The notes beneath the pieces are model-generated. The model worked only from the letters and a program-made list of their open reading frames with translations. It was not told where the DNA came from and did no database searches. This document shows, in pieces, positions 38,765 through 57,959 of a stretch of 64,000 nt of DNA; positions within the stretch are counted from its first letter, which is position 1; every line of letters starts with the position of its first letter. Origin of the DNA: Arcobacter sp. FWKO B (GTDB lineage: Bacteria; Campylobacterota; Campylobacteria; Campylobacterales; Arcobacteraceae); NCBI RefSeq assembly GCF_014844135.1, contig NZ_CP041403.1:372001-436000 (forward strand), in the 5' to 3' direction. The position numbers were made by a program, and so were the translations under genes.

Positions 38765-39822
38765 TGAATTTCAAAAATCATACCCCATTTAGTGCGTTTG
38801 CTTGGGAAAATCATGATAACAACAAGCAAACATATATCACTTCAGTTTGTAGAATAAAACTTACTATATCATATAAGAAAGATAATGAATTATTGGAATT
38901 GAAACTAGATAAAAATCAAGGGGATTTATTCGACAAAGATATATTTTTTGATGATTCAAATGAGAAAGAACTAAGATATTCAACAGACTATATACCATTT
39001 AAACCTATGGCTGATATTATCATAAATGCAAACTCATACTCAAAGATTGCATTACCTATGTGGAGCTGTGGGGTTAAAGTATTTTCCCAAAGTAATAAAA
39101 TGATACTTGAAAAAAATCTTATTGTTAGTGGTCAAAGAAATTGGATAAAAAAGCCAATCGTAGGATGGGAACTAGAAAATCCAACAAAATGTGATAAAGT
39201 ACCACTTAGATATAGCCTAGCTTATGGTGGAGAAATTACAAAAGATGAGGAAATAATATCATCATATCCATACAATCCTATCGGTATTGGTCTTGTGGAC
39301 AAAAACCATCCATCGCATATCATAAAAGCTCCACAAATCTATGAAGCCAAACTACCTATAAATCCAGATGTGCCATATGAAATTTTATCATATGAAGGGT
39401 TTGGTAATATTGATAGAAGCTGGGAGGATAGATTTGTGTTTGGTGGCACATATGATGATAACTGGATAAAAAATCAAAGTCCATTTTTGCCTCTTGATTT
39501 TGACTATAGATTTTATCAGACATCCCATCCAGACATGAGACTAAAAGAATATATACAACCCTTTACTACTGTGGTATTAGAAAACCTATTACCCAATGCA
39601 TCTATAGCAAAAATAATAATCCCACCCTACACTCCCATATCAAAAACAACAACCAATACACAAGAAAATATCTCATCAATGAATCTAGACACCCTACTCA
39701 TAGACATAGATTCACAAAATCCTAATGATTGGTGTATTTACTTATCTTACAGAAGCAGAATAAAATTTGATGAAGATGTAATTTCTAGTGAAATATTTTT
39801 AGAAACATCAAGGGATAGTTAG
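38764..39822 (+). CDS. DUF2169 protein, T6SS effector adaptor
   Basis: 352 residues. It starts with NHTPFSAFAWENHDNNKQTY and contains KPMADIIINANSYSK, GQRNWIKKP, VPLRYSLAYGGEI and ENPYNPIG-like YPYNPIGIGLVDK, all typical of DUF2169, a domain fixed next to vgrG and PAAR/Rhs effectors. The family is thought to help load effectors on the spike. The start overlaps the vgrG stop. It ends before the effector array, consistent with serving the Rhs protein downstream. Confidence 0.85.
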   Translation: MNFKNHTPFSAFAWENHDNNKQTYITSVCRIKLTISYKKDNELLELKLDKNQGDLFDKDIFFDDSNEKELRYSTDYIPFKPMADIIINANSYSKIALPMWSCGVKVFSQSNKMILEKNLIVSGQRNWIKKPIVGWELENPTKCDKVPLRYSLAYGGEITKDEEIISSYPYNPIGIGLVDKNHPSHIIKAPQIYEAKLPINPDVPYEILSYEGFGNIDRSWEDRFVFGGTYDDNWIKNQSPFLPLDFDYRFYQTSHPDMRLKEYIQPFTTVVLENLLPNASIAKIIIPPYTPISKTTTNTQENISSMNLDTLLIDIDSQNPNDWCIYLSYRSRIKFDEDVISSEIFLETSRDS

Positions 39823-39863: not shown

Positions 39864-40600
39864 TGAGCGGATTGATAATATTTCCTATATTTATAGTATA
39901 TGTTGGGGTTGGTGTTTTGATATTGAATTTTATATTAAAACTATTTAAAAAACAGATTGCAAAAGTATGGATAATTTTAATAGTTGTAGTTTTTCCATTT
40001 TGGGATGTTATAGCTGGTTATGGGATATTGGGCATAATAAAACTTACTGCCAAACCAACTATTTATGAATATCCACAAAGAGATGAGGATGGAAGGATTG
40101 AGAGTGTTGGGGAGAGTTTGACAAGAGGCTTTGTTAGTACTGAAACTTTATCGGATAGTCAAAGATTAAATAATTTCAAAAAAAAGTTCAATAATAAGAT
40201 TAGTGATTTTATTGAATTTAATTCTGATGTATATGATGAGGATAATAAAAGACTGATTGTGAAAATTAATTTTAAACAAAATGATAAACCATATGAGATT
40301 ATAGAACAATCTCAAGCAAGGTATATTGGGAAATTCATTACAGATGTTGAAGATACTACATTTTTAGGATTTGGTATTGATAAATCCATAGTAGAAATAC
40401 ACGATACAAAGGAAAATAAGATTATAGCAATAGCTCCTACTATTGGTGTAAGTACAAATCTCTACATGGAATGGGTACGCCAAAAAATCTTTTTTTTAGT
40501 AAGTAGTGGAGGTGGCAGAGCTATGATATATATAGATTCCATTGTAACGGCACAAGAATTGAGAAAAGAATTATTTACAGATATAAAAGGTATTAGATAA
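39863..40600 (+). CDS. Putative membrane immunity-like protein
   Basis: 245 residues. There are two N-terminal membrane helices, FPIFIVYVGVGVLILNFILKL and WIILIVVVFPFWDVIAGYGILGII, then a soluble domain with TKPTIYEYPQRDEDGRIESV and a beta-rich end. I do not recognise a family. It starts in a TAATG overlap with the micro-ORF and ends in a TAATG overlap with the lipase-like gene. Its place after an effector remnant suggests an immunity protein retained after its toxin was lost; this is inference. Confidence 0.6.
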   Translation: MSGLIIFPIFIVYVGVGVLILNFILKLFKKQIAKVWIILIVVVFPFWDVIAGYGILGIIKLTAKPTIYEYPQRDEDGRIESVGESLTRGFVSTETLSDSQRLNNFKKKFNNKISDFIEFNSDVYDEDNKRLIVKINFKQNDKPYEIIEQSQARYIGKFITDVEDTTFLGFGIDKSIVEIHDTKENKIIAIAPTIGVSTNLYMEWVRQKIFFLVSSGGGRAMIYIDSIVTAQELRKELFTDIKGIR

Positions 40601-41196
40601 TGAAAAAGATAAATAAAATATTAGACTATGGCCTTTTGGCGGAATTATCTTATCTTAGACTTGAAAGTAGATACTATCAACAAATTAATTTTGACGGAGA
40701 TATAAATAAAGTTCTTTATACTAATGAAGGTCTAAAAGATTACTTCAAAGCCACAGAAGAAACAATTGAAAAATCATTAGAAAAAAATATCATCAAATCC
40801 AAAAACGAACAAACCTTTACAGATAAATTCAAAGAAGTATATGAAACTGTAGATAAATACCGTGATATCCAACCAGACAGAGTAAACACAATGATAAGTT
40901 TATTAGATAGATACACAATAAAAGATTTTAGTAGTGATGATGGATGGCTTGGTTCTGATTTTCAGGGAATGCTTTTAGAGGAAAATAATACTGGGAAATA
41001 CATAATAGCTTTTAGAGGTACTTCAAGTATCAAAGATGCGTTAGTTGATATTGCTATTGCAAAGATTACTGTGAATCATAATTTCCAATACAATGAAGCC
41101 ATTGAGTTTGTAAACCTTATGATGAGAAAGCATGGTATTGAAAAAAATAATCTAACATTTAATGATATGATTATTGATGAAAGGATGGTGGGGTGA
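40600..41196 (+). pseudogene. Lipase-like T6SS effector truncated before its catalytic serine
   Basis: 198 residues. YGLLAELSYLRLE at the start, then DGWLGSDFQGMLLEENNTGK and IIAFRGTSSIKDALVDI, match the N-terminal half of class-3 lipases (Mbeg1-like). The next element in such lipases is a strand and the GHSLGG nucleophile elbow, expected right after HGIEKNNLTF; here the protein instead ends NDMIIDERMVG. The reading frame is open and the gene is coupled to the next one, so a truncated protein is probably made, but it lacks Ser, Asp and His of the triad and should be inactive. The tail is shared with 41692-42750. Confidence 0.65.
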
Positions 41197-41209
41197 TGGA
41201 TGATATAAA
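41149..41209. repeat. Shared effector-tail repeat, copy 1
   Basis: 61 bases identical at 57 positions to 42703-42763. It spans the last codons of the truncated lipase and the ribosome site and start of the following membrane gene. Confidence 0.85.
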
Positions 41210-41711
41210 AAAAGATATTACACTTGAAGAAAAGAATGAAGATAAGATATTATTGGAAGTGACATATAATCCTATTGGTAGGATTTTTGCTTTTTTATTT
41301 TATTTAATGATATTTACATTTGGACTAGCCTTAATAATTTATGACCATTATATAAGTATTGCCATTGGCATTATATCAATATTAATTGGTACTTATTTTG
41401 GGCTTGGTATTTTAAACTTTAAAAAATTAGTATTCTATAATGATAGAGTATCTTACTATAGAAATATATTCATAAATAATAACAATCCAAAAGAAATCTC
41501 CTACAATGAACTAAACTATGTAAGCTTAACCAATGGTAGATATGTAGGTGGTTCACTAAGCTTTAATATGCTTAAGCCATTTGGAGAAAAAACAATATCT
41601 TTCCAAATAGATTTATTACCAATTAGCAATAAAACACTTATGAAAATAAAAAAAATATTAGTAGAAAAAAAAGTTATAGAAAAGGATGCTCATGTCTGGG
41701 ATTACGACTAA
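41196..41711 (+). CDS. Membrane protein, possible immunity partner
   Basis: 171 residues. Two membrane helices, AFLFYLMIFTFGLALIIYDH and ISIAIGIISILIGTYFGLGI, are followed by a beta-rich region with LVFYNDRVSYYRNIF and ISYNELNYVSLTNG resembling a bacterial PH-like domain. It shares this plan and its start context with the protein at 42750-43223, so the two are likely distant paralogues. The ATG at 41196 lies in a TGATG overlap with the lipase-like gene. Candidate immunity protein for that effector; not proven. Confidence 0.6.
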   Translation: MDDIKKDITLEEKNEDKILLEVTYNPIGRIFAFLFYLMIFTFGLALIIYDHYISIAIGIISILIGTYFGLGILNFKKLVFYNDRVSYYRNIFINNNNPKEISYNELNYVSLTNGRYVGGSLSFNMLKPFGEKTISFQIDLLPISNKTLMKIKKILVEKKVIEKDAHVWDYD

Positions 41712-42750
41712 TACAGTAAACACTCAAGTAGCAATATATGAGGTAAAAGAATCAAGTGCAAACATAGCTTTAGTTTCTTTTAGTGGATATTTGGCTTTTA
41801 GCGGAACAATGGCGGCAGAATTTACAAAAAAAAGTATAGCTGGTAAAACAATATCTACTATATTTTCTGTAACGGATGGTGTAATTAATTGTGCTTTTGA
41901 TGCTAATATGAATCCTGATAAAAGTCTTGGTGAACTTGTAGGTATGCAGGTGGCTGGTTTTGGTGCAGGTAAATTAGGTTCAATAATTGGAGAGCAGACT
42001 GGTCTTCAATTGACCAGAACAACAGCAGGTATTATAACAAGAAGCCTAGGAACAAGAATAATAGCTGGAGCAGCAGGTGGAGCTGTGGCTGGTCCTGTGG
42101 GGGCTGTAGTTGGTGCTGTTTTGGGTGCTGTTTTATGGGGAATGTATGGTGAAGATTTATACAATAAAGCTAAAGAAAAAGTTGGTGAGTTAGGATTGAA
42201 TCTAAATCCAGATAATATAGACATAGCTGATAAGTATTTTGCACAAAGACCAAAAAACATCTCTACACTTCATGGAAACAACAAATCATCTCTTAGCTTA
42301 GCAGTAGAACAAAGTAATCATACTTTACAATCAAATCCAAAATCAATCTTAGAAACTATAGATAACTATGACAATAAATTAGAAGAAGATTTAAAACATA
42401 TAGAAATATATTTATCACAAATAATAGTCCAATATGAGCTAAACTCTCTTTCAGGCTTAGAATCCAAAGCAAACTTCGGAGCAAGGCAAGATAGTAAGTA
42501 CAAGGTTGTTAGTACTAGTCCTAGTGTCAACAAGACTCCAAGGGGGAGTAGTACTCCAGATATATCATATGATGTGCAAGAAATAATCATATCATTAAAT
42601 ACTATCTTTTATCCATACTCATCGTTATATAAAAAAAGTATTTCGTCATTTAGTTCACTAAACTCCAACAATACTTTTTTTAAAAGCCTTGATTATGAAG
42701 AAAATCTAACATTTACTGATATGGTTATTGATGAAAGGATGGTGGCGTGA
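41692..42750 (+). pseudogene. Chimeric, truncated Rhs-type effector
   Basis: 352 residues. N-terminal residues 20-150 are glycine/alanine-rich with likely membrane helices (AAGGAVAGPVGAVVGAVLGA), as in T6SS Rhs pre-domains. A soluble helical region then leads into SKANFGARQDSKYKVVSTSP, the DUF4150/PAAR entry also found in the big Rhs gene. After SYDVQE the homology stops and 57 residues of different sequence follow, ending in LTFTDMVIDERMVA, the tail of the truncated lipase. So the PAAR, Rhs core and toxin are missing. The start at 41692 has AAAGG close before it. Confidence 0.7.
42455..42582. repeat. PAAR-entry repeat, copy 1
   Basis: 128 bases closely similar to 44192-44319 in the large Rhs gene. 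It encodes the linker into the DUF4150/PAAR domain. The homology ends exactly where the chimeric gene departs. Confidence 0.9.
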
Positions 42751-42763
42751 TGGAAGATATAAA
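42703..42763. repeat. Shared effector-tail repeat, copy 2
   Basis: Second copy of the 61-base tail repeat. It covers the end of the chimeric effector, the AAGGA ribosome site and the start of the next membrane gene. Confidence 0.85.
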
Positions 42764-43225: not shown

Positions 43226-46200
43226 ATGTCATTCCATACTCCAATTGAAATTAAAAAAGAAAGCATTAGTGAAATACCAGCCATTTACTATAGTAGCACT
43301 GCATATCTTGTTGATAAAATTGATAATATAGCATCAAAACTTATGGCAAAAGCTACTTTTCCAGGAGGTACAGCTATTGCAATGGCAATAAATATAGTTG
43401 CAGATCCTAAGAACAAAGGTAAAGTTATTGTATCAACAACATTAGCAAGTGGTGCAATATTTTATATAGCAGGAGCTAAATTAACTACATTAGTCATTGA
43501 AGCTATTGTTGCATCTGCAATGATGGCATTAGGAATAACTGCGACACCAATTATAATTACTTTGGTATCAGCAGTAAGTTTGGCAATTGTAGCTACAATT
43601 GCTGGTAGTGAGTTATATGATATTATCTATAATGAATTGAAAGACATAGAATCTAAATATAGAAACTTAACAGAAACAGATATCTTTACACTATACGCAA
43701 AAGGCAAAGTTACACAAGAAGAACTTACTTTAATCTTGGAAGCTTTTGAACAAAATAAAACCATCAGTTGCCTTGAGCCATACGAAGAACTTAAAACTTT
43801 AAGACATATTACAAATATAGAAAATGAATATCTTGCTTCATATATAAAAGTAAACAAACCAAACAACAAAGTACAAATCAAAGATAAAGATATACAAGAA
43901 GTAAAACAAATCACAAAAGAAATACTTAAAGAAGACACAAACAACACCCTTAAAAAACACGACATAAACATAATAACCACAAATGATGGTGAAGAATATA
44001 CTGTTATGAAAAAACAACTTATTGATTATCTATCTAGGAAAAAAGGTAGTAATACTCAAGATGTATATAACTATGATTTCAATAGTTTTATAAGAAAAGA
44101 AGATAGACTAGGAGAAGGTGAGGAGTTTTTACTTATAAAACCTACAGAGTATCTACAATTTCCACTTATTCATTCTATTTATTCCCTCCAAGGCTTACAA
44201 TCCAAAGCAAACTTCGGAGCAAGGCAAGATAGTAAATACAAGGTTGTTAGTACTAGTCCTAGTGTAAATAAGACTCCAAGGGGTAGTAGTACTCCTGCTA
44301 TATCATATGATGTACAAGAGGATTTGGGTGGGGCTAGCAATGTGAGTACTAGTGTATTTTTTAATTCTAAGGGGGCTTATGTAAAAAATAGCAATTCTAC
44401 CAAAGTCACGGGGGATGAGAAAGGGACTAAAAAGGGGGTAAAATCTGGAACTCTTAGTGCCCAGTCTGATCCGCTGGAACATTCTTCTAGTGTATTTATC
44501 AATGGACAAGAAGTGATAAGGGTAAATGATGTGCAGTATATGCAAGGGAGGAATACTGTAGGCAAGGTAGTAAGTGATGAAAGTGGTCAAAAGCCTGCTA
44601 TTAGTGATGATGGGGAGATTGTAGGGACACTCAAAAAAGCTACTACTTCTCCTATGATTAATAAAAACAAACCATCTAACAATACATCTAAAACTGGAGA
44701 ACTTGGAAGCTTTAGGGGGTCACCTGTGATACTAAAAAGTGGTATGTCTTATGTATCTCATAGTGATATCATACTAAGGAGCATAATAGATATAAATCTT
44801 TCAAGAGTATATATAAATGATGATTATAGTGGTAGCTTTGGGAGGGGTTGGAGACTAGGATATGATAATAGGTTTGTAAATACCAAAGATAATATATTTA
44901 CACTTCATACTACAGAGGGACTAGAATATAGATTTGAGATGGTTGATGGTGAGTTTAGGGATATGGATAATCTTGGGGTTGTGGTATCTGCTTATAATGA
45001 TACTTATACTATATCCTATCAAGATAAAACCACCCATACATATCACTCCTCAAAACTCATACAAATAAAAGATAAAAATGGTAATTGTTTGGAGTTTATT
45101 TATGATAAGAACTTTTTACTAACTCAAATCATAAGCAATAAAGCATCACTTGATATCACATACAACCATAAAGGTTTTATTCATAAGATACAAGACCATA
45201 GTGATAGAATATTTGTCTATAGCTATGACAAACATGACAATCTTATCCAAGTAACATATCCAAATAAAACAACACTAAAGTATAACTACTCCAAAACTCT
45301 CTCAAATCAATACTATCTTAGTGAAACTATCAACCAACTAGATTTAATTACCCTTAGTTTTACATATGATACCAACAACAAAGTACAAAGCTATACTACA
45401 CCTAGCGAATCTTACACTTATGCTTATGAGCCAAATCGTATCATAAAAACTAGTAGTACTAATGAAAGGACATTTTATAAGATTGATAACTTTGGTGCTA
45501 TAGTGGCTATTACTTATGCGGATAAAACAACAGCAAATGAAGACTATGATATAGATACAAATAGCTCTTGGATAAAAGATAGAGCAAATAAAAAGTCATT
45601 TTACAAATATGATGAGAAAAATAGAATAATCATCTCTCAAACAGCCATAAATCAAGATATAGTTTATGATTATATGGATGATACTAAATTTGTCAGTAAA
45701 CAAAATTCAAACAATAAAATCACTTCATACCAATATGATGATAAATATAATCTTTGCCAAATAAATCATCCCAACTTGACACAAGACATATACACTTATG
45801 ATAAATATGGCAATATTTTAACACACACAAACCAATCAAACCTTACGACAACATACTCCTACAATGACTTTGGACAAATCACATCCATAACAGATATCAA
45901 TAACAATACAATTTACTATGAATATGATGAATTAGCAAGGGTTGTATCATATGTGAATAGCCATGGTATCATAGAAGTATATAAATATGATTTGTTAGAT
46001 AATATTACTCATGTATATAAAAATGGATTGCTGTTTGTAGCATTTGGTTATGACAAGGCAAATAGACTTCTAAGTATAAGTGACCATATGGGAAATTCAT
46101 CTTATTTCAAATATGACAACTTTGTACTAAGTCATATAACCCATCCAAACCAAACTACTACAAACTTCACCTTCTCAAAAGATAAAACAACCATTACCTT

Positions 46201-48355
46201 ACCAAATGATACAACCATACACTATGAATTTGATAAATATACAAACAAACTCATAAAACTAACCACACCAAATATCAATATATCATACAAATATGATAAA
46301 TTTGGCAATATGCTAAGTGCTACAGATGACTCACACGAAATATCATATACATATGACAATAAAGCAAACTTACTAAGAAGTAGCTATGATGACAAAGATA
46401 TAGTTTATAGTTATGATGAAAATGAACTTTTTTCCTTGGGGTTTGAAGATAGGAGTTTTTATTGTCTAAGAGATAATACTAACAATATCCTAACTCTTCA
46501 AACTAACTCTTTGGATAAGTATGAGTTTAGTTATGATGAAAATGGAAATGTAGTATCATTACAGTATCCAAATAAGTTTACTATGATAAACAAATACAAT
46601 CCTCAAAGAAAGTTGTGTTTTAGTACTACACCACATAAAGAGCTTTCATATATCTATGACAACAACAATCAGATAATCTCATACAATAATATAAAATACA
46701 AGTATGACACCAATCAAAGATTAATTAGTAGCAACGATAAGTCATATTCTTATGATTTATCTAATAATTTACTATCTTATAATAATACTTATGATAACAT
46801 AACCAATCAACTTATAAGCAATGACATATACGAATGTTTCTATGATGTACTTGGTAATCTGACTCAAAAGGTCAATAAGCAAACGAGTATTACATCACAT
46901 TATAGATATGATGATTTATCAAGACTTATAGAATATAAACAAACAGATAGTTCTAACTCTATATTAAAGGAAATATATTTGTCATACAATCCTCTATCAC
47001 AAAGAGCATCGAAGTATTATAAAGACAAAGATATATCATATTATCACAAATACATATATGACAATCACAATATCATAGGGATATATGATGGAAGAAGTGA
47101 TAGGTTATTAGCTTCATTTATACATACTCCAAAAAGCATAGACAAACCACTATCAATAACTATAGACAAACAAACATACTATTATCATTTAGATATCAAT
47201 AACTCTGTAGTAGAAATAAGTGATGAGTCTAAAAACATAGTACAACACTTTACATATGATGACTTTGGGTATATTATAGATAGATATACTAGTGAAAATC
47301 ATAAAGAGTTAGAAATATTAAATCCTTATACTTACACATCAAGAGAATATGACACTGATGAGTTATATTACTATAGAGCTAGATATTATGACCCTAGCAT
47401 AAAAAGATTTATATCACCAGACCCTATAAGCTATCAAAGTGGAGATACAAACTTTTATGCTTATGTAAACAACAACCCAATAAACCTAACAGACCCTAGT
47501 GGACTAAAACCTCAGGTGAATATTCCTAATAGTGATGTAGTAGGTAATATATACACAAAGAATATAGCAAACAATCTACCTCAAAATCCAAACATAGATA
47601 TACTTACTCCTCCACCCTCACCTATCAATGCTGAACCTATGGGTAAGGATGGGTTTAAGGTTAGTGGTGAAAAACCTGAGCCTATGCAAGAATGTTGCAA
47701 AAAACCTGTTCCAACTGTAGCACCGACTCCTGGGTCTTGGGCATATTATACAAACAGACACAACAACTATAAAGATAGACAACTACTATGTACTAATCTA
47801 CCACCAAATCCTCCTATTTATTATTTAGGATATGGCGAGAAATATTGTAGAAAATTTGTTGAAGAAACGAAACCTAGTCTTTCTCAAGCAGGGCAAGATT
47901 GGTTGGATGATGTATTGGTCAATTTACAAAAATATATGGAACAAGGTGTTGTTGATTTAAATTTTGTTGCAACTATTAATAAAAATTTCAACACTACAGT
48001 ATCCGACCATGGTGGAGCTAAAAGCTATTTTACAGGTATTGAATGTCGTAGTGAAGAACATAAAAAATTTGCATTTGCTACCCACCCTGATGCCTATATG
48101 CCATTGAGGATGTCTACGGAACTTACTTGTAGCGATTTAATAGCTATTGGTATGACTCCAGATGGAGAGGAATGGTATGGAGACAATCGCTGGGATACAA
48201 TATCTCAAGCGTGGTATGTGGTACAGGAAATGGGAGTCAATGGAATTGTTAATATTTCCAAAAAATGTGGCAAAGAGAGTGGAAATTATGTATGGGACAG
48301 TATAAAAAACAAGGCAAATCAAGTTACTAATACCATACGGGACTTATTCAAATGA
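43226..48355 (+). CDS. PAAR-Rhs polymorphic toxin (T6SS effector)
   Basis: 1709 residues. Residues 65-140 form a hydrophobic pre-Rhs region (IFYIAGAKLTTLVIEAIVAS); residues 335-460 contain a DUF4150 PAAR-like domain that would cap VgrG. From about residue 510 a long run of YD/Rhs repeats leads to the core end RYYDPSIKRFISPDPISYQS and DPSGL at 1423-1427. A 52-residue linker (rich in Asn and Pro) precedes a 231-residue tip with GYGEKYCRKFVEETKPSLSQ, SDHGGAKSYF and FAFATHPDAYMP. I do not recognise the tip family; conserved-looking Asp-His and Thr-His-Pro-Asp segments suggest an enzyme. The next gene overlaps its stop by 4 bases. Confidence 0.92.
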   Translation: MSFHTPIEIKKESISEIPAIYYSSTAYLVDKIDNIASKLMAKATFPGGTAIAMAINIVADPKNKGKVIVSTTLASGAIFYIAGAKLTTLVIEAIVASAMMALGITATPIIITLVSAVSLAIVATIAGSELYDIIYNELKDIESKYRNLTETDIFTLYAKGKVTQEELTLILEAFEQNKTISCLEPYEELKTLRHITNIENEYLASYIKVNKPNNKVQIKDKDIQEVKQITKEILKEDTNNTLKKHDINIITTNDGEEYTVMKKQLIDYLSRKKGSNTQDVYNYDFNSFIRKEDRLGEGEEFLLIKPTEYLQFPLIHSIYSLQGLQSKANFGARQDSKYKVVSTSPSVNKTPRGSSTPAISYDVQEDLGGASNVSTSVFFNSKGAYVKNSNSTKVTGDEKGTKKGVKSGTLSAQSDPLEHSSSVFINGQEVIRVNDVQYMQGRNTVGKVVSDESGQKPAISDDGEIVGTLKKATTSPMINKNKPSNNTSKTGELGSFRGSPVILKSGMSYVSHSDIILRSIIDINLSRVYINDDYSGSFGRGWRLGYDNRFVNTKDNIFTLHTTEGLEYRFEMVDGEFRDMDNLGVVVSAYNDTYTISYQDKTTHTYHSSKLIQIKDKNGNCLEFIYDKNFLLTQIISNKASLDITYNHKGFIHKIQDHSDRIFVYSYDKHDNLIQVTYPNKTTLKYNYSKTLSNQYYLSETINQLDLITLSFTYDTNNKVQSYTTPSESYTYAYEPNRIIKTSSTNERTFYKIDNFGAIVAITYADKTTANEDYDIDTNSSWIKDRANKKSFYKYDEKNRIIISQTAINQDIVYDYMDDTKFVSKQNSNNKITSYQYDDKYNLCQINHPNLTQDIYTYDKYGNILTHTNQSNLTTTYSYNDFGQITSITDINNNTIYYEYDELARVVSYVNSHGIIEVYKYDLLDNITHVYKNGLLFVAFGYDKANRLLSISDHMGNSSYFKYDNFVLSHITHPNQTTTNFTFSKDKTTITLPNDTTIHYEFDKYTNKLIKLTTPNINISYKYDKFGNMLSATDDSHEISYTYDNKANLLRSSYDDKDIVYSYDENELFSLGFEDRSFYCLRDNTNNILTLQTNSLDKYEFSYDENGNVVSLQYPNKFTMINKYNPQRKLCFSTTPHKELSYIYDNNNQIISYNNIKYKYDTNQRLISSNDKSYSYDLSNNLLSYNNTYDNITNQLISNDIYECFYDVLGNLTQKVNKQTSITSHYRYDDLSRLIEYKQTDSSNSILKEIYLSYNPLSQRASKYYKDKDISYYHKYIYDNHNIIGIYDGRSDRLLASFIHTPKSIDKPLSITIDKQTYYYHLDINNSVVEISDESKNIVQHFTYDDFGYIIDRYTSENHKELEILNPYTYTSREYDTDELYYYRARYYDPSIKRFISPDPISYQSGDTNFYAYVNNNPINLTDPSGLKPQVNIPNSDVVGNIYTKNIANNLPQNPNIDILTPPPSPINAEPMGKDGFKVSGEKPEPMQECCKKPVPTVAPTPGSWAYYTNRHNNYKDRQLLCTNLPPNPPIYYLGYGEKYCRKFVEETKPSLSQAGQDWLDDVLVNLQKYMEQGVVDLNFVATINKNFNTTVSDHGGAKSYFTGIECRSEEHKKFAFATHPDAYMPLRMSTELTCSDLIAIGMTPDGEEWYGDNRWDTISQAWYVVQEMGVNGIVNISKKCGKESGNYVWDSIKNKANQVTNTIRDLFK
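44192..44319. repeat. PAAR-entry repeat, copy 2
   Basis: Copy within the complete Rhs gene of the 128-base block also found in the chimeric effector. In this copy the frame continues into DLGGASNVSTSVFFNSKGAY, the intact DUF4150 domain. Confidence 0.9.
46979..47661. repeat. Rhs core-end repeat, copy 1
   Basis: 683 bases nearly identical to 49624-50306 at a constant offset of 2645. It covers the last Rhs repeats, the DPSGL core end and the linker, and stops where the toxin tips diverge. Confidence 0.95.
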
Positions 48356-49584
48356 AAACAATATTAAGGATATCAATGTGGATTATTTTAGGTATTATCA
48401 GCTTTATAGCTGTTGTCGCAATTATGCTTTTCAACTGGCAGAGCATCACAAATTTTAAAATAGGACAAACAATGAACAAATTTTCAGAAGTGACAACCTC
48501 ATGGACAGATATAGACTTTACAGTAGCAGTAGAAGGAGAAACGCCTTATTTGACATTCTCAAAACAAACACCGTATCCAGCCTTAGCAAAATACAAAATT
48601 AATGGAATTTTGAGTATAAAAAATGCTGTGTTAGTATATGGTAGCAATTATTATGAAAAACAAGCAATATGGAATAGTTCGAGAGATGGTATTTACTTTG
48701 TAGAAGAAAATGAACAAGCTTATATTTTTAGTTCTAATGACAATGGTAAAACTTTTGAAAAAATCTCTTTAGGTCACGGCATAGTAAGAAATATCCTTAA
48801 TGTCAACGATATACTATATACTGAAATCTATGAGCAAGATACCAAGAACATACGCTATTACAGTTCTGTTGATTTAGGTAAAACATGGGTTTCAAATGAC
48901 TGGAAGCCATCATTTGCATGGTATGATGGTACAATGTTTATAGAAAATGAAGAGAGAACACATATTGTTATGAGTCAAGACAATGGCGTGACATGGCATC
49001 CTTTAGACAGTATCTTAAAAGAGTTTTATACTGAAACAAAAATGCTATCTCTTTTTCAGCGTTCATTAAGACAATTAAATAATCATATAATAGTAGGTAT
49101 GAACGAAAAGGAAGAATTCTTATTTCTTGACTTAAAAACGATGAAGATAGAAAAAAAGGTTTTTGAAACACCAGAGAATCAAGAAATAGTTGGCTTCACT
49201 ATTAATAATAATCAATTGGCTTTAGAACTTAAAGAATATACTATTCCTGACCAAACCAAACCTCCATTTGACTCAGGAGGTATACAAACATCATACTATT
49301 TTCCAGAGACCAAAGAGTATGTCAATCTTCCAAAACATCTACCATACCATATTTATTGGAATATACAAGATAACTACATAGGTGGCTTTATGAAATATGG
49401 AAGCCAATCGTTTGGAATACCAGTTCATGTTTATACTTTAGATAGAGGGAAAGAATGGAAGTATGAGATATTAGATAAGTATAGTTTTATGTCTGCTTAT
49501 GCATATATTGATGGTCAATTGTGGTTTGTTGCAGCAAAAGACTCTGCAGCGAATGTTTTTTTGACCAAAGGTGAATTAAAATAA
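48352..49584 (+). CDS. BNR-repeat membrane-anchored protein, probable Rhs immunity
   Basis: 410 residues. A single N-terminal membrane helix (IILGIISFIAVVAIMLF) is followed by a beta-propeller with Asp-box/BNR repeats: SSNDNGKTFE, SSVDLGKTWV, SQDNGVTWH and LDRGKEWK. BNR propellers occur in sialidases, but the catalytic Arg triad is not evident. It starts in an ATGA overlap with the Rhs stop, the usual place for the immunity gene. A periplasmic propeller tethered to the inner membrane implies that the Rhs tip acts in the periplasm or on the envelope. The pairing is inferred from position. Confidence 0.75.
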   Translation: MKTILRISMWIILGIISFIAVVAIMLFNWQSITNFKIGQTMNKFSEVTTSWTDIDFTVAVEGETPYLTFSKQTPYPALAKYKINGILSIKNAVLVYGSNYYEKQAIWNSSRDGIYFVEENEQAYIFSSNDNGKTFEKISLGHGIVRNILNVNDILYTEIYEQDTKNIRYYSSVDLGKTWVSNDWKPSFAWYDGTMFIENEERTHIVMSQDNGVTWHPLDSILKEFYTETKMLSLFQRSLRQLNNHIIVGMNEKEEFLFLDLKTMKIEKKVFETPENQEIVGFTINNNQLALELKEYTIPDQTKPPFDSGGIQTSYYFPETKEYVNLPKHLPYHIYWNIQDNYIGGFMKYGSQSFGIPVHVYTLDRGKEWKYEILDKYSFMSAYAYIDGQLWFVAAKDSAANVFLTKGELK

Positions 49585-49623
49585 AATCAATAAATAAAAC
49601 GATACAATTAAGGAGCTAAGATT

Positions 49624-50306
49624 TTGTCATACAATCCTCTATCACAAAGAGCATCAAAGTATTATAAAGACAAAGATATATCATATTATCACAAATACAT
49701 ATATGACAATCACAATATCATAGGGATATATGATGGAAGAAGTGATAGGTTACTTGCTTCATTTATACATACTCCAAAAAGCATAGACAAACCACTATCA
49801 ATAACTATAGACAAACAAACATACTATTATCATTTAGATATCAATAACTCTGTAGTAGAAATAAGTGATGAGTTTAAAAACATAGTACAACACTTTACAT
49901 ATGATGACTTTGGGTATATTATAGATAGATATACTAGTGAAAATCATAAAGAGTTAGAAATATTAAATCCTTACACTTACACATCAAGAGAATATGACAC
50001 TGATGAGTTATATTACTATAGAGCTAGATATTATGACCCTAGCATAAAAAGATTTATATCACCAGACCCTATAAGCTATCAAAGTGGAGATACCAACTTT
50101 TATGCTTATGTAAACAACAACCCAATAAACCTAACAGACCCTAGTGGACTAAAACCTCAGGTGAATATTCCTAATAGTGATGTAGTAGGTAATATATACA
50201 CAAAGAATATAGCAAACAATCTACCTCAAAATCCAAACATAGATATACTTACTCCTCCACCCTCACCTATCAATGCTGAACCTATGGGTAAGGATGGGTT
50301 TAAGGT
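49624..50306. repeat. Rhs core-end repeat, copy 2
   Basis: Second copy of the 683-base block, with a few substitutions relative to 46979-47661 (for example gag-ttt against gag-tct around 49870). In frame with the orphan tip. Confidence 0.95.
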
Positions 50307-51099
50307 GAGGGGTAGTAAGCCTAAGCTTGATATAGGGAAGACTCTTTACTTTGTGTTTTATGACTCCAATGCAAAACATACCAAATATCTAAAAAGTTCA
50401 GCAACAAAAGTATACAATGAAGTAAAACAAGAGATAAGTAAAAAACCAGATAAACAACACCACATAGTATATTTACAAGAAGTAACATCAGCTAATGAAC
50501 TAAAAGACTTTGTACAAAGTAAGATAGAACAAAATGGTGGAAAAGAAAAGGTACTACTTGGAAGTATAGAAGCAATAAGACAAATACCTCAAAGTACTTC
50601 TATATATCAATATGTAAAAAATACTTTAAATATAAAACCAAACCAAGAACACCTAAAACCAAAACCATACTTCCAAGGCAACATAGACCAACAATCTATA
50701 AATACCCATAATGAAAATATATTAAGAAATGAAAAACTACATAAAACTATAGCGAGCAAAGAACATCAGAAGTATGTAATGATGGAGGTGGCTGAGGATT
50801 TGGATGGTTTATCTGATAATTTAGGACTAGCAGGTGCTGTTTTATTAGTTGCTGCTACAAAAAATCCTAAAAGAGCAGCTATACTAGCACCTATAGGAAA
50901 AGGCTTAACTGTATTGTCTGAAGGTGCAATGTATGGTAAACATTTATTTAAATACTTTGCAGATGAATTTGACTATAGAGAACTGACAACTGATGTAATA
51001 TTAGCTAAAACTGTATTTATTAGGAACAATGAATTAATAGAATATTATGCAGATAAAACCATATCTGAATATATAAAAAATTTATATGAGGACAAATAA
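49624..51099 (+). CDS. Orphan Rhs C-terminus with a different toxin tip
   Basis: 491 residues. Residues 1-227 copy the end of the large Rhs protein, including the DPSGL core end; there is no PAAR or N-terminal part. The 264-residue tip differs: VRGSKPKLDIGKTLYFVFYD, then a charged helical region and a hydrophobic segment, LGLAGAVLLVAATKNPKRAA. I recognise no family. It begins at a TTG with AGGAG eight bases upstream; the ribosome site lies outside the duplicated DNA. It could be translated as a separate protein or be a silent cassette that swaps tips by recombination with the main gene. Confidence 0.75.
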   Translation: MSYNPLSQRASKYYKDKDISYYHKYIYDNHNIIGIYDGRSDRLLASFIHTPKSIDKPLSITIDKQTYYYHLDINNSVVEISDEFKNIVQHFTYDDFGYIIDRYTSENHKELEILNPYTYTSREYDTDELYYYRARYYDPSIKRFISPDPISYQSGDTNFYAYVNNNPINLTDPSGLKPQVNIPNSDVVGNIYTKNIANNLPQNPNIDILTPPPSPINAEPMGKDGFKVRGSKPKLDIGKTLYFVFYDSNAKHTKYLKSSATKVYNEVKQEISKKPDKQHHIVYLQEVTSANELKDFVQSKIEQNGGKEKVLLGSIEAIRQIPQSTSIYQYVKNTLNIKPNQEHLKPKPYFQGNIDQQSINTHNENILRNEKLHKTIASKEHQKYVMMEVAEDLDGLSDNLGLAGAVLLVAATKNPKRAAILAPIGKGLTVLSEGAMYGKHLFKYFADEFDYRELTTDVILAKTVFIRNNELIEYYADKTISEYIKNLYEDK

Positions 51100-51101
51100 T
51101 T

Positions 51102-51623
51102 ATGAAAAAAGCATTTAAAATTATATTTAAAGAGATAAGTACAATTTTAACATTATTGGCAATTCCTACATTTGCATTAATATTAGGGCTATCTGGAAAA
51201 GATGGTGTACAACTTCTAAATAAATTTGAACCAGAACATTATAAAGGATATATGTTTGTAGCTATATTTGGATACATTTTAGCAATAGTACTTACAATAG
51301 ACAGTTGGTACCACGATTACTACCTACCCTATAAAAAAAGCAAAGAACAACAACCAACCCCAAAAGAATCACAAGAAGAAACCGTACCACCAAACAAAGA
51401 AGAAACCATTTCTTCTACTATAGAGCCAACCAAAGATGAAGAAAAAGCATTAACTTATTGGGAAAAAGTAGTAAGCCCATGTAAAAACATAATGACTATA
51501 GTAATAGTACTGATGTTTATCAGATTTACTATTCCACAGGAGAGTTGGTTTTTAAATATTGTGTTTTTAGGATTTTTGGGATATATGATATGGTGTATGA
51601 ATAAGGCAAATAAGAAACCTTGA
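51102..51623 (+). CDS. Small membrane protein, probable immunity to the orphan tip
   Basis: 173 residues. There is an N-terminal helix, TILTLLAIPTFALILGL, a second, MFVAIFGYILAIVLTI, a charged middle (EQQPTPKESQEETVPPNKEE) and two C-terminal hydrophobic segments (IMTIVIVLMFIRFTI, LNIVFLGFLGYMIW). No family recognised. It starts two bases after the orphan Rhs stop and keeps the effector-membrane gene alternation of the array, so it is best read as an immunity protein. Confidence 0.6.
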   Translation: MKKAFKIIFKEISTILTLLAIPTFALILGLSGKDGVQLLNKFEPEHYKGYMFVAIFGYILAIVLTIDSWYHDYYLPYKKSKEQQPTPKESQEETVPPNKEETISSTIEPTKDEEKALTYWEKVVSPCKNIMTIVIVLMFIRFTIPQESWFLNIVFLGFLGYMIWCMNKANKKP

Positions 51624-52305: not shown

Positions 52306-53796
52306 ATGCTAAACCCAATATCAGAAGAAAACATTTGTGGTGTTGATATGAAGTATGATGATTTATATTTAGCTATTGAACAAGAAATATCAAATGAAAA
52401 TAGCCTAACAAATACAAACAAAATCAATTGGGAATTTGTTGGTATAAATTCTCAAATATTACTTACTAAACAAACAAAAGATATAAAGTTGTTTTGCTGG
52501 TGGGCAATAGCTTCAATCAAGCATGATTTAAATACCACTTTTTCTATCTTAGAATTAATGAATCAATTTATAACTATGTTCCATAATAAACTATTCCCGA
52601 CAACAATAAAAGCAAGGATTTCAATATTTAATTGGTTTGATAGTAATTTAGAAAAAACTATTATACTAGATAACAAACTAGCATTTACTACCGATGATTT
52701 AACTAACCTACAAGAAATATTAAATTCAATACAAAACTCTATTAATGACTTAACTAATACACAATATACATACTTTAAAAACTTGTTAACAATACTAACA
52801 AATATGCAAAAACAACAATCCAATTTAGTACAAATTACTCAAATCACAACCCCCAATACACAACAAACAAAACCAATAAATACACAAAATATAGATTATA
52901 TCAACAATGATTATGATTTCAAAAAATCATTAAATGTATTTAAAAAATTATCTAATGAGATAATTCAATATCTACATAATACCGATAGTTACAGTTTAAT
53001 GGCTATTAAGCTTACAAGAATGCTTTGTTGGTTAGAGATAGATGAAACTCCAAAATCAGTCAACAACAAAACACTCATAAAAGCCCCTAGTCAAACTAGA
53101 TTGGATGAAATAGATGAATTGCTAAATAATTCAAACTTAGAAGAAGCATTTTTATTAATAGAAACAACCTTAAGTAGGGCTCCATTTTGGTTGGATGGAC
53201 ACAAAAAATCTTATGATATTTTAAAACAAGAAAATAAACTCCAATCTACAAAAGAGATAAAAAACCATATACTATCTTTTGTTAACACATATGATAATAT
53301 ATTGGATTTAACATTTGATGACAACACCCCTTTTGCATCTCATGAAACAATAAAGTGGCTAAATATTTCATTACAACCTGTAAAAAATGAAACTACAAAT
53401 TCTAAAGATATAGAAATTGTTGATGATTTAAAAAACTTTAAAAACAAGTGCTATGCATATATAAAACAAAAAAACCCTAAACAAGCTTTTTTAGAAATAG
53501 AAACTAAAATAAAAACTGCTGATAATTATGAAGATAAATTTTTATTAAAGATTTTACATATTGAAGTTGCCATTGAAGCATCTTTACCACATCTTGCATT
53601 GGCAATAATCGAGGAGCTTTATCATGATATTGAATATTTTAAACTAGAAAAATGGAAACCAGAGTTGGCATCAAAAGTATATCTTATACTATTGAAGTCT
53701 TTTAATAGAACACAAATATCAAAAGAACGGTTTGATGATGCTTATTATAAGTTATCAAAAATCAATTCTACTATGATTTTGGATATCAAATTTTAA
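52306..53796 (+). CDS. tssA: T6SS protein TssA
   Basis: 496 residues. The N-terminal ImpA_N domain starts LNPISEENICGVDMKYDDLY with INWEFVGINSQILLTKQTKD and LFCWWAIASI; the C-terminal half is helical (LDEIDELLNNSNLEEAFLLI, APFWLDGHKKSYDIL) as in VasJ-type TssA. It caps or primes the sheath at the baseplate. AAGGA stands ten bases before the ATG. It is the first of six contiguous tss genes. Confidence 0.88.
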   Translation: MLNPISEENICGVDMKYDDLYLAIEQEISNENSLTNTNKINWEFVGINSQILLTKQTKDIKLFCWWAIASIKHDLNTTFSILELMNQFITMFHNKLFPTTIKARISIFNWFDSNLEKTIILDNKLAFTTDDLTNLQEILNSIQNSINDLTNTQYTYFKNLLTILTNMQKQQSNLVQITQITTPNTQQTKPINTQNIDYINNDYDFKKSLNVFKKLSNEIIQYLHNTDSYSLMAIKLTRMLCWLEIDETPKSVNNKTLIKAPSQTRLDEIDELLNNSNLEEAFLLIETTLSRAPFWLDGHKKSYDILKQENKLQSTKEIKNHILSFVNTYDNILDLTFDDNTPFASHETIKWLNISLQPVKNETTNSKDIEIVDDLKNFKNKCYAYIKQKNPKQAFLEIETKIKTADNYEDKFLLKILHIEVAIEASLPHLALAIIEELYHDIEYFKLEKWKPELASKVYLILLKSFNRTQISKERFDDAYYKLSKINSTMILDIKF

Positions 53797-53807
53797 AGGA
53801 GTAAATT

Positions 53808-54287
53808 ATGGACAAACAGTCACAATCACCAAAAGAAAGAATTAATGTCACCTATAAACCAGCAACAGGAGATAATTCTGAAGAGATAGAAATACCATTT
53901 AAACTAACAGTTTTGGGTGAATTTAATCCAAATGAAGAGAAAAAACCAGTTGAACAAAAAAAAGTTGTTAAAATAAACAAACAAAACTTTAATGATGTTT
54001 TAAAAACTCAAAACTTATCACTTGATTTTATGGTACCAAATAAGCTTGATTCTAATAATGATGATTTAAGAGTTAATCTTAAAATAGAATCAATAAAAGA
54101 CTTTTCACCAGAAAATATAGTTGAGAATGTTGACGAGATGAAACAATTAATGCAACTAAGACAATCACTTATTGCACTAAAAGGACCTCTTGGCAATATT
54201 CCAGCTTTTAGAAAAGCAATACAAAGTGCAATATCAGATCCAGTTGAGAGAGAAAAACTTTTACAACAACTAACAACACAAGAATAA
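53808..54287 (+). CDS. tssB: T6SS sheath small subunit TssB
   Basis: 159 residues. Family marks: ERINVTYKPATGDNSEEIEI, PFKLTVLGEFNP and KIESIKDFSPENIVENVDEM, ending LRQSLIALKGPLGNIPAFRK. It interlocks with TssC to form the contractile sheath. Eleven bases separate it from tssA and ten from tssC. Confidence 0.96.
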   Translation: MDKQSQSPKERINVTYKPATGDNSEEIEIPFKLTVLGEFNPNEEKKPVEQKKVVKINKQNFNDVLKTQNLSLDFMVPNKLDSNNDDLRVNLKIESIKDFSPENIVENVDEMKQLMQLRQSLIALKGPLGNIPAFRKAIQSAISDPVEREKLLQQLTTQE

Positions 54288-54297
54288 AGGAATAAAC

Positions 54298-55776
54298 ATG
54301 TCAAATATAATACAAAAAAATTCTTTACAAAATACATTTGATAATAATTTTTTAGAAAGCATTGTTGAACAAACAAAACTCTCTAAAGATGATGACACTT
54401 ACGATGTTGTAAAATATGGAGTAGAAGCACTTATTAAAGAACTCCTAAGTTCAGGTAATAGTGAAGAAAAAGTCAATAAAGCTGTAATAGACAGGATGAT
54501 AGCTGAAATAGATTTAAAAATAAGTGAACAAATGGATGAGATACTACATCATAAAAACTTTCAAGCACTAGAATCAAGATGGCGTGGACTTTATATGTTG
54601 GTTGAAAGAACTGATTTTAGAGAAAATATCCTAATGGAGTTTATAAATGTATCAAAAAATGAACTTTTAGAAGACTTTGAAGAGTGTTTGGATATTACAC
54701 AAAGTGGCTTATACAAGCATCTATATAGTGCAGGTTATGGTCAATTTGGTGGTGAACCTGTTGGTGCAATTATTGCTGATTATGAATTATCACCTTCAAA
54801 TATGGATATGAAATTCTTAACAAAAGTTGCTTCAATATCAGCAATGAGTCATGCTCCATTTATCGCTGCAGCTGGTCCAAAGTTTTTTGGTTTAGAAAGT
54901 TTTGAGGGATTACCAGATTTAAAAGATTTACAAGATGTAATGAGTTCACCAAAATATGCAGCATGGAGAGGTTTTAGACAGACAAATGAAGACTCAAGAT
55001 ATGTAGGATTGACTCTTCCTAGATTTTTGTTAAGAGCACCTTATGACCCTGAGAATAATCCTATTACAAAATTTGTATACAAAGAAAATGTAGAAGACAA
55101 CCATGAATCATATCTATGGGGAAATACTATTTATGCATTTGCAAGTGCTATGACTGCTAGCTTTGCCAACTATAGATGGTGTACGAATATAATAGGTCCA
55201 AATAGCGGTGGTGCTATCAAAGATTTACCAGTTCATACTTTTGAGAGTATGGGGGATGTTGAAATGAAAATTCCAACTGAAGTTTTAGTTACAGACAGAA
55301 GAGAATATGAGCTTTCTGAACAAGGTTTCATACCTCTTACTATGAGAAAAGGGAGTAACAATGCAGCTTTTTTTGCAGCAAACTCTGCACAAGCTCCAAA
55401 AATATTCCCAAATACACCAGAAGGAAAACAAGCAGAGCTAAACTACAAACTTGGAACTCAAATGCCTTATTTATTTGCAGTTACAAGAATGTCACATTAT
55501 ATAAAAGTACTTCAACGAGAACATATTGGTTCGTGGAGAGAAAGAGCTGACCTTGAAAGAGAGCTTAACAAATGGGCAAAACAATATATTGCAGACCAAG
55601 AAAATCCAAGTGCAGAAATAAGAAGCAAAAGACCATTTAAAAAAATCCAAATTGAAGTAGAAGATGTAGAGGGTGATCCAGGATGGTATAGAGTTAAAAT
55701 GGCTATGAGACCACACTTTAAATATATGGGTGCTAGCTTTGAGTTATCACTTGTTGGCAAGTTAGACAAGGATTAA
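54298..55776 (+). CDS. tssC: T6SS sheath large subunit TssC
   Basis: 492 residues. Typical motifs: FQALESRWRGLYMLVERTDF, ADYELSPSN-type and FIAAAGPKFFGLESFEGLPD, WRGFRQTNEDSRYVGLTLPR and the FLLRAPYDPENNPI stretch; the C-terminal VEDVEGDPGWYRVKMAMRPH is the sheath handshake strand. Full length with no disruption. Confidence 0.97.
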   Translation: MSNIIQKNSLQNTFDNNFLESIVEQTKLSKDDDTYDVVKYGVEALIKELLSSGNSEEKVNKAVIDRMIAEIDLKISEQMDEILHHKNFQALESRWRGLYMLVERTDFRENILMEFINVSKNELLEDFEECLDITQSGLYKHLYSAGYGQFGGEPVGAIIADYELSPSNMDMKFLTKVASISAMSHAPFIAAAGPKFFGLESFEGLPDLKDLQDVMSSPKYAAWRGFRQTNEDSRYVGLTLPRFLLRAPYDPENNPITKFVYKENVEDNHESYLWGNTIYAFASAMTASFANYRWCTNIIGPNSGGAIKDLPVHTFESMGDVEMKIPTEVLVTDRREYELSEQGFIPLTMRKGSNNAAFFAANSAQAPKIFPNTPEGKQAELNYKLGTQMPYLFAVTRMSHYIKVLQREHIGSWRERADLERELNKWAKQYIADQENPSAEIRSKRPFKKIQIEVEDVEGDPGWYRVKMAMRPHFKYMGASFELSLVGKLDKD

Positions 55777-55779
55777 TAA

Positions 55780-56196
55780 TTGCTTTATAAGGGGAGTTTA
55801 TTTGAAAAAATTACAGACTGTGTAGAGTTCAAAGGTTTAAGTAAAGAAGAAGCCATGTATAAGTCTATAGCAAATAATTTATCAAAAATATTTTCAACAA
55901 ATGCAGGTAATGCAGAAATAGCGACAGACTATGGTAAACCAGACTTAAATAATATAGAACTAAGTCAAAATGAATCCATAGAAATGATAGAGAAAAAAGC
56001 AGAAATTTGCATCAGAAAGTACGAACCAAGACTATACAATGCAAAAGTTGGTATCAGTAGAGATAAACTTCAATATAATGAAATGAATATTCATATTGAG
56101 GGTTTTCTCAAGATAGACAAAAAAAGTAAAAAAGTGACTTTTAAAGCAAATTTACTAAGTAGTGGTGAAATAAAGGTGATACCAGATGACTATTAA
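55780..56196 (+). CDS. tssE: T6SS baseplate protein TssE
   Basis: 138 residues, gp25-like lysozyme-fold baseplate wedge: SLFEKITDCVEF, SIANNLSKIFSTNAGNAEIA and YGKPDLNNIELS. It starts at TTG, supported by AAGGA seven bases upstream inside the end of tssC; no ATG start fits the conserved N-terminus. The stop overlaps tssF by 11 bases. Confidence 0.93.
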   Translation: MLYKGSLFEKITDCVEFKGLSKEEAMYKSIANNLSKIFSTNAGNAEIATDYGKPDLNNIELSQNESIEMIEKKAEICIRKYEPRLYNAKVGISRDKLQYNEMNIHIEGFLKIDKKSKKVTFKANLLSSGEIKVIPDDY

Positions 56197-57958
56197 TGAT
56201 TATTATATGCAAGAAATGGACTCACTTAGAACTTTAGGTGGTGAGTTTGCAAACAAAAACCCAGGTCTTGCACCTTATCTTTCAAAAGAAGGTCAAGATC
56301 CAGATGTAGAAAGATTACTTGAGGGATTTGCATTTTTAACTGGTAGACTAAGGCAACAACTAGATGAAGAACTTCCCGAAGTTGCACATACGCTGACACA
56401 ACTAATGTGGCCAAACTACATAAGACCTGTTCCTTCTTATTGCATTATTGCTTATGAGCCTTTGAGTGATGGGAATATTTTTCAAAAAGTACCAAAAGAC
56501 ACTCATGTATGTGGTGAAACAAATGAAAATAAAATAACTTGTAAATTTAGAACTTGTTTTAATACAGATATACACCCCATAGAAGTAACAAAAAGCAACT
56601 ATTATGTTATTGGTAACAAGAGTCAATTAGAAATTAATTTTTCATTTTTATCAAATCTAACATTAGATAAATTAAATTTAAATTCATTAAGAATCTACTT
56701 AAATGGATCAAGATTTGTTTCACAAGAACTGTATTTGTATTTTATGGAATATGTAGATAAAATCGAAATCGAACTATTAAATAACAACAATGATCTTGTA
56801 AACTCAATAAATCTACCAAATAAATCAATAAGCCCATTAGGATTTGGTATAGACGAGAGAATGGTACCATATCCTGATAATGTTTTTGAGGGCTATATTG
56901 CTCTTCAAGAATACTTTTCTTTTGAGCATAAATATTTATTTTTCAATATAAATAATTTATCAATACTAAAATCATTAGATGAAAACACATTAAATAATAC
57001 TAGTAAATTGAGGATTAAATTTTATTTCAATAAAAAACTAGCATCAACACAAGCTATCAAAAAAGATATTTTTATGTTACATTGCACGCCTGCTATCAAT
57101 CTTTTTGAAGCAAATGCCGTACCAATCAGAAAAAACAACTATCAAGAAGAATATCTCCTAATAGCATCTGAATATGAAAGAAGTGATGCTGAAGTGTTTT
57201 GTGTTGAGAGTGCAAGAGGATGGAAAGCAGACAAAAATACATATGAAAACTTTTTACCATTTGAATCTTTTAACTATAACGACTATGAAGAGTATTACTC
57301 TGTTAGAATCAAACTATCTGATGATGGAGAAAGAACTCAAAGTTATATAAGATTTTCTTCTTCTGATGGAATTTTTGAATCATTTGATAACAAACACGCT
57401 ACCGTATCAGTAAAACTTTTATGCACCAATAGTAATCTGCCTACAAAACTGCCTCTAGGTAGCATAAATATTCCAGATTCTCATTCGCCAACATCGCATT
57501 TGAAATTTACAAATATAACCATACCAACATCTAGCTATCCTCCACCTATAGGAAAAGATTTTTTGTGGAGAATGATTTCAAATATGTCCCTCAATTATTT
57601 ATCGCTTACTGATATTAAAACATTGATTACAATACTTAGTACATATGATTTTTTGGGTGCACACGATTTAAAAATCAAAAAAAAGAATACATTAATGTTC
57701 AAAGGTTTAGTTTCAATCCAACATTCAAAAACTGAAATGATTTATGAAGGTTTTCCCATAAGAGGAATAAAAACTTTTTTAGAAATAGATGTTAGTAAAT
57801 TTACAAATATTGGTGAAGCATATTTATTATGCTGTGTATTAAATGAGTTTTTTGCACTATATTGCAACATCAACTCTTTTCATAAACTTGAAGTAAAAAT
57901 GATTGACTATGATATTTTCCAATGGCCTCCTAGAATAGGCTATCAACAAGTGATTTAA
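56186..57958 (+). CDS. tssF: T6SS baseplate protein TssF
   Basis: 590 residues. The start NDYYMQEMDSLRTLGGEFAN with NPGLAPYLSKEGQDPDVERL and LEGFAFLTGRLRQQLDEELP is the TssF/VasA signature, as is LTQLMWPNYIRPVPS. It is the wedge core together with TssE and TssG. One base separates it from tssG. Confidence 0.96.
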   Translation: MTINDYYMQEMDSLRTLGGEFANKNPGLAPYLSKEGQDPDVERLLEGFAFLTGRLRQQLDEELPEVAHTLTQLMWPNYIRPVPSYCIIAYEPLSDGNIFQKVPKDTHVCGETNENKITCKFRTCFNTDIHPIEVTKSNYYVIGNKSQLEINFSFLSNLTLDKLNLNSLRIYLNGSRFVSQELYLYFMEYVDKIEIELLNNNNDLVNSINLPNKSISPLGFGIDERMVPYPDNVFEGYIALQEYFSFEHKYLFFNINNLSILKSLDENTLNNTSKLRIKFYFNKKLASTQAIKKDIFMLHCTPAINLFEANAVPIRKNNYQEEYLLIASEYERSDAEVFCVESARGWKADKNTYENFLPFESFNYNDYEEYYSVRIKLSDDGERTQSYIRFSSSDGIFESFDNKHATVSVKLLCTNSNLPTKLPLGSINIPDSHSPTSHLKFTNITIPTSSYPPPIGKDFLWRMISNMSLNYLSLTDIKTLITILSTYDFLGAHDLKIKKKNTLMFKGLVSIQHSKTEMIYEGFPIRGIKTFLEIDVSKFTNIGEAYLLCCVLNEFFALYCNINSFHKLEVKMIDYDIFQWPPRIGYQQVI

Positions 57959-57959
57959 A

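Follow-up and report, generated by a model that had tools for sequence, protein, structure and literature searches.

Genetic context of the Rhs effector

The window analysed here is a 64,000-nucleotide stretch of Arcobacter sp. FWKO B DNA (contig NZ_CP041403.1, positions 372,001 to 436,000). Within it, a gene for a 1709-residue Rhs effector (43226–48355; open reading frame (ORF) call, Pfam and NCBIfam) adjoins a gene for a 410-residue protein that we propose as its immunity partner, a membrane-anchored Asp-box (BNR) propeller (48352–49584; Pfam BNR, motifs and hydropathy), the start of which overlaps the Rhs stop by ATGA. Coordinates are those of the window and the effector, propeller, displaced-cassette and T6SS features lie on its forward strand. 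Taken as a whole, our results make it probable that the C-terminal tip of the effector is a stanniocalcin-like toxin, delivered by a type VI secretion system (T6SS) to act outside the cytoplasm and paired with the propeller as immunity protein.

A Pfam scan of the effector locates a Tox-PAAR-like domain (PF13665) at residues 340–446, DUF6531 at residues 498–570 and six RHS repeats, while NCBIfam places the Rhs-associated core (TIGR03696) at residues 1344–1427. The core ends in the sequence DPSGL (residues 1423–1427; 47492–47506), the motif at which Rhs proteins typically undergo autocleavage. The tip comprises residues 1479–1709 (231 residues; 47660–48352), and profile, alignment and structure-model evidence together suggest that it is a stanniocalcin-like toxin domain. 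An initial annotation of this DNA had already delimited the tip, and its residue range holds, although the codons start at 47660 rather than at 47662. Independent evidence for a boundary at residue 1479 comes from a repeat: the end of the Rhs core and the linker (46978–47661) occur again at 49623–50306, identical at 678 of 684 bases, and the likeness of the two copies stops exactly where the tip starts.

A single cluster holds the effector together with a T6SS VgrG spike (36767–38764), a DUF2169 protein (38764–39822) and the T6SS genes tssA, tssB, tssC, tssE, tssF and tssG (52306–58949). DUF2169 proteins are typical adaptors of PAAR and Rhs effectors. The anatomy of a T6SS PAAR-Rhs polymorphic toxin is therefore complete, with a PAAR-like domain, Rhs core, variable tip, adjoining partner gene and T6SS cluster all present.

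The tip belongs to a widespread family

The initial annotation had described the tip as unrecognised, and searches of Pfam, NCBIfam, PHROGs and the PDB indeed gave it no significant match. Scans of the tip and its relatives with Pfam, NCBIfam, PHROGs and PADLOC gave nothing usable, and profiles of the tip family matched nothing in the PDB. As a side observation, one member of alignment A5 matched the PADLOC candidate defence family PDC-S15 (E 4e-4). A tblastn search of plasmids recovered four relatives of the tip, namely proteins of Paraburkholderia and Acinetobacter with genes behind VgrG, an Rhs tip from Persicobacter and, from Alisedimentitalea, a secreted protein (L011). The window tip was aligned with three of these four, and this alignment yielded 15 further loci in bacterial genomes (Bacteroidota Rhs tips, Paraburkholderia, Acinetobacter, Myxococcota and Riflebacteria). 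At 24–39% identity, Bacteroidota contribute Rhs tips, Paraburkholderia and Acinetobacter contribute cargo linked to VgrG, and Myxococcota contribute proteins that look like cargo. When whole genomes were searched with family profiles, members turned up in 30 of 237 Myxococcota genomes, 2 of 296 genomes of a Bacteroidota order, 1 of 199 genomes of the Acinetobacter family, 3 of 349 Pseudomonadota genomes and 2 of 40 genomes of the Riflebacteria phylum. The family is widespread, being present in at least five phyla, and had no earlier name. Because it was not found in the 396 other Campylobacterota genomes sampled, the window copy was probably acquired horizontally. No relatives of the tip were detected in IMG/VR scans or in a phage collection.

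Members of the family are of two kinds. The first consists of Rhs-linked, VgrG-linked or cargo-like proteins, mostly followed by a propeller gene. The second consists of secreted, Cys-rich, stand-alone proteins, which occur in Myxococcota (L044–L055), on an alphaproteobacterial plasmid (L011) and in a Riflebacteria-phylum genome (L061). In the neighbourhoods examined, no Asp-box propeller lies near these secreted members.

The adjoining propeller as candidate immunity protein

The neighbour of the tip had been annotated as a membrane-tethered propeller with at least four Asp-box repeats, a description that its sequence bears out. Its most hydrophobic 19-residue stretch, residues 9–27 (48376–48432), has a mean hydropathy of 2.84 and forms an N-terminal membrane anchor, and the protein matches Pfam BNR above cut-off. 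Four Asp-box motifs were found under a loose definition (residues 127–135, 171–179, 208–215 and 362–369) and three under a strict one, against 0.24 and 0.000 expected from shuffled sequences. The single-chain structure model is poor, with a predicted local distance difference test score (pLDDT) of 41, and the anchor helix is its only confident part. Relatives of the propeller match the Sortilin-Vps10, BNR and Ycf48 models, and a single propeller of the set weakly matches Tli3 (PF24316, E 0.0023).

The proposal that the propeller is the cognate immunity protein is supported by the family. In at least 21 loci from four phyla, with differing upstream delivery genes, the tip gene is adjoined downstream by a gene with clear Asp-boxes, whose product has a lipobox or an uncleaved membrane anchor at its N-terminus. 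Over 20 loci, the distances among tips correlate strongly with those among propellers (Mantel r 0.84, 0 of 5000 permutations), a correlation confounded by shared ancestry. The partner also evolves faster than the tip, as expected for immunity proteins, because the window propeller is only 11–18% identical to other propellers compared with 22–35% for the window tip and other tips. We therefore have high confidence that tip and propeller form an effector-immunity pair. In three Myxococcota loci (L017, L018 and L038) the genes downstream carry fewer Asp-boxes or none. In L017 and L018 (at about 5243–7167), two consecutive propeller-like genes follow the tip gene, the second of which has a lipobox-like stretch and clearer Asp-boxes. 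One Pseudomonadota genome (G1450:C173) carries two tandem effector-propeller pairs, L056 and L059, approximately 2.3 kb apart.

Probable relationship to stanniocalcins

The relationship described in this section was not part of the initial annotation, which had called for a profile search and a structure prediction of the tip. The former returned no database family and the latter an all-helical model (pLDDT 76). Among the Foldseek matches listed for this model against the PDB, stanniocalcin-2 (STC2) has the highest probability (0.30, with all others at or below 0.10), without reaching significance, and a comparison against viral models gave nothing significant. The sequences of stanniocalcin-1 (STC1) and STC2 used below were checked against the PDB, where STC2 is identical to the deposited chain and STC1 matched as its homologue. 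L011 aligns to STC1 with a z of 7, and one member from each of three different groups aligns to it at a z of about 6.4.

The argument for homology proceeds in two steps through the secreted members. Eleven secreted Myxococcota proteins were first found with a tip-family profile that includes L011; when L011 is left out, the tip profile still matches all 11, at 37–57 bits. Conversely, a profile of the secreted Myxococcota proteins matches the window tip with 54.8 bits (E 5e-14 at Z=1e5). The evidence that the secreted members are related to the window tip is, on these alignments, strong. For the second step, the secreted Myxococcota profile was compared with 177,635 PDB sequences, of which only STC2 was significant (E 2.8e-4; next E 1.2). 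With L011 and L061 added to the profile the match to STC2 improves to E 3.7e-5, with nothing else at E≤10. The secreted-protein profile scores 25.9 bits against STC1 and 23.7 bits against STC2, compared with 11.6 bits for the best of about 10,000 shuffles. The cysteine framework is colinear in the secreted Myxococcota proteins, L011 and L061, and is lacking in most conflict members, the window tip included. As judged from these comparisons, the evidence that the secreted bacterial members are homologous to stanniocalcin is good though not overwhelming. Since the tip is related to the secreted members and these in turn to stanniocalcin, the tip would itself be stanniocalcin-like.

Conserved residues and proposed mechanism

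Conservation across 37 bacterial members is highest at Y1532, G1537, Y1540, S1553, G1556, W1559, L1567, H1620, Y1624 and D1637. In the alignment these fall within the motif YYLGYGEKYC (residues 1532–1541; 47819–47848), which has the family form YYxxYGxKY; a conserved helix S..G..WL......LQ..ME (residues 1553–1572; 47882–47941); a second helix F..FAF.TH..AY with near-invariant H1620 and Y1624 (residues 1612–1624; 48059–48097); and a D..I..TPD segment with near-invariant D1637 (48128–48163). A catalytic or ligand-binding site would most plausibly involve the near-invariant Y1532, Y1540, H1620, Y1624 and D1637, and the conserved Tyr, His and Asp suggest an enzyme. In both STC1 and STC2 the residues aligned with H1620 and D1637 are Gln and Asn. 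The H-x-x-C-Y spacing of the secreted members recalls the active-site helix of phospholipase A2; homology to that enzyme was rejected, as no profile matched any phospholipase A2 chain in the PDB.

Our results suggest a model in which the toxin is the C-terminal stretch of 231 residues. This domain would be all-helical and divergent, and its bacterial family a distant homologue of the stanniocalcins. The VgrG/PAAR/Rhs spike would carry the tip into a neighbouring cell, where, by analogy with known Rhs proteins, the shell would free it after cleavage at DPSGL. The target of the freed tip may then lie in the periplasm or envelope, outside the cytoplasm. This site of action, which the initial annotation had proposed, is likely because the partners are consistently membrane- or lipoprotein-anchored. 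No match of the tip to a cytosolic nuclease or NADase appeared. In the producer, the membrane-anchored propeller would neutralise the tip by binding to it in the periplasm, in keeping with the conserved linkage of the two genes. That the propeller may cover an active site of the tip, as the initial annotation suggested, would agree with all of the observations.

Alternative explanations

The pair may be real and its resemblance to stanniocalcin nevertheless a product of convergence among small, Cys-rich, all-helical proteins. Several results weigh in this direction. The Foldseek match to STC2 is not significant (E 4.9, TM-score 0.33/0.43, root-mean-square deviation 8.5), and masking of Cys in STC1 and STC2 loses the profile match, so that much of the signal is the cysteine framework. 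No member of the family reaches the gathering cut-off of the Pfam stanniocalcin family PF03298 (best 16.1 bits against 23). The tip alone has no direct score to STC1 or STC2, the link running via intermediates; neither a stanniocalcin profile run directly on the tips nor one built from all members together gave a significant result, and tblastn of STC1 on plasmids found nothing relevant. Two stanniocalcin sequences underlie the correspondence of H1620 with Gln and of D1637 with Asn. Against convergence, when the stanniocalcins were shuffled with Cys fixed in place the best of about 10,000 sequences scored 16.6 bits and none reached the observed scores. Because masking abolishes the match while these shuffles stay below it, the framework appears necessary for the signal and insufficient to explain it. 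Moreover, STC2 alone was matched although the PDB holds many Cys-rich proteins, and the structural search had indicated STC2 before any sequence link was tried. An independent Pfam model also selects the same loci from whole genomes: PF03298 gave six matches at E≤0.1 over the 237 Myxococcota genomes, all below the curated cut-off, and three of these, the best among them, coincide with loci that the tip-family profile had detected beforehand (G967:C35, G1148:C195 and G1012:C31). On balance convergence seems improbable and stanniocalcin homology of the tip likely, with the family best placed outside PF03298 as curated and within a wider stanniocalcin superfamily only.

If the tip is instead non-enzymatic, it could bind and inhibit an envelope protein much as STC2, a secreted binding protein and inhibitor, does the protease PAPP-A (PMC9579167). 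The lack of a match to any known enzyme fold agrees with such a role, which would however need stoichiometric delivery and sits uneasily with near-invariant His, Asp and Tyr residues that resemble an active site across otherwise divergent members. We consider a binding toxin of this kind rather unlikely. Because polar residues are conserved, an enzyme acting on an envelope component is somewhat the better supported of the two, and enzymatic activity itself is modestly favoured. The pattern of immunity also led us to consider membership of the Lipocone superfamily (Min-Wnt, SAA, TelC or related), whose toxins cleave lipid head groups and which includes T6SS-delivered, all-helical, diffusible tips with membrane or lipoprotein immunity proteins (PMC12419801). 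This was disfavoured and appears very improbable: TelC, SAA and Wnt are absent from the Foldseek matches listed, no profile matched any such PDB entry, the sNxxGR motif of the SAA-Wnt clade is missing from the tip-family alignment, and propellers are not among the immunity proteins in that study. Finally, the propeller could be an unrelated housekeeping lipoprotein that lies downstream by chance. Asp-box propellers have many roles, and the window protein has weak NCBIfam matches to BamI and other families, but its recurrence beside the tip gene in so many loci with different delivery genes, and its absence beside the secreted non-conflict members, make coincidence extremely unlikely.

Comparison with known systems and significance

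The likeness to stanniocalcins (PF03298; STC1 and STC2) is carried by the secreted bacterial relatives, in the profile match to STC2, colinear cysteines, QGK/ECY-like segments and an all-helical secreted domain. In contrast, the window tip is bacterial, lacks the cysteine framework, is fused to an Rhs/T6SS delivery protein and is paired with an immunity gene, and STC1 and STC2 have Gln and Asn where the bacterial proteins have near-invariant His and Asp. Among T6SS PAAR-Rhs toxins, RhsA of Pseudomonas protegens and TseI of Aeromonas dhakensis share the PAAR-like domain, the Rhs shell, a variable tip after the core, an adjoining immunity gene and a displaced orphan tip downstream; the window tip differs in belonging to no described toxin family and in having a membrane-anchored propeller for immunity. 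Tle/Tli effectors with periplasmic lipoprotein immunity resemble the system in their lipoprotein or membrane-anchored partners, of which the Tli3 match is one weak instance, whereas the tip has no lipase match. Lipocone toxins are comparable in their helical diffusible tips, extracytoplasmic immunity and animal superfamily members, and differ in the absence of any sequence match, or of a structural match among those listed, and of propeller immunity.

Stanniocalcins are secreted animal proteins of a hormone family, and the only solved fold, that of STC2, had no reported structural relatives (PMC9579167). They have deep roots in eukaryotes according to a paper cited in a review (PMC9063168). 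The bacterial branch, with its toxins and small secreted members, would provide an outgroup for the stanniocalcins and hints at where a former active site may have lain. We tentatively propose, at somewhat less than even likelihood, that the stanniocalcin domain is found bacteria-wide in two forms, one a secreted protein and the other a T6SS toxin tip that carries an enzymatic His-Asp-Tyr site; were the bacterial domain enzymatic, the animal stanniocalcins would be inactive relatives that have lost the site. They would then join animal signalling proteins such as Wnt, the domains of which also occur in bacterial conflict proteins. A comparable history has been described for Wnt and serum amyloid A (SAA) in the Lipocone study, which does not mention stanniocalcin (PMC12419801). 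No paper combining stanniocalcin with polymorphic toxins was found in a literature search that most subscription papers lay beyond. The tip further represents a T6SS toxin family, so far undescribed, whose putative immunity proteins are propellers.

A displaced second tip and possible traces of earlier cassettes

A second tip, likewise absent from the initial annotation, lies behind the propeller gene. Since the core end and linker are repeated at 49623–50306, the ORF at 49624–51099 is a displaced (orphan) Rhs C-terminal cassette that retains part of the core in front of an older, different tip, for which Pfam and NCBIfam give no family match. It is followed by a membrane protein (51102–51623) without a significant Pfam match, which by its position is a candidate immunity protein of the displaced tip. 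Upstream of and extending into the Rhs gene, short modules are repeated at 42453–42581 and 44191–44319 (94% identical) and at 41144–41209 and 42698–42763 (91%). The ORFs at 40600–41196 and 41686–42750 have a common C-terminal sequence, DMxIDERMVx, and possibly represent what is left of earlier effector cassettes.

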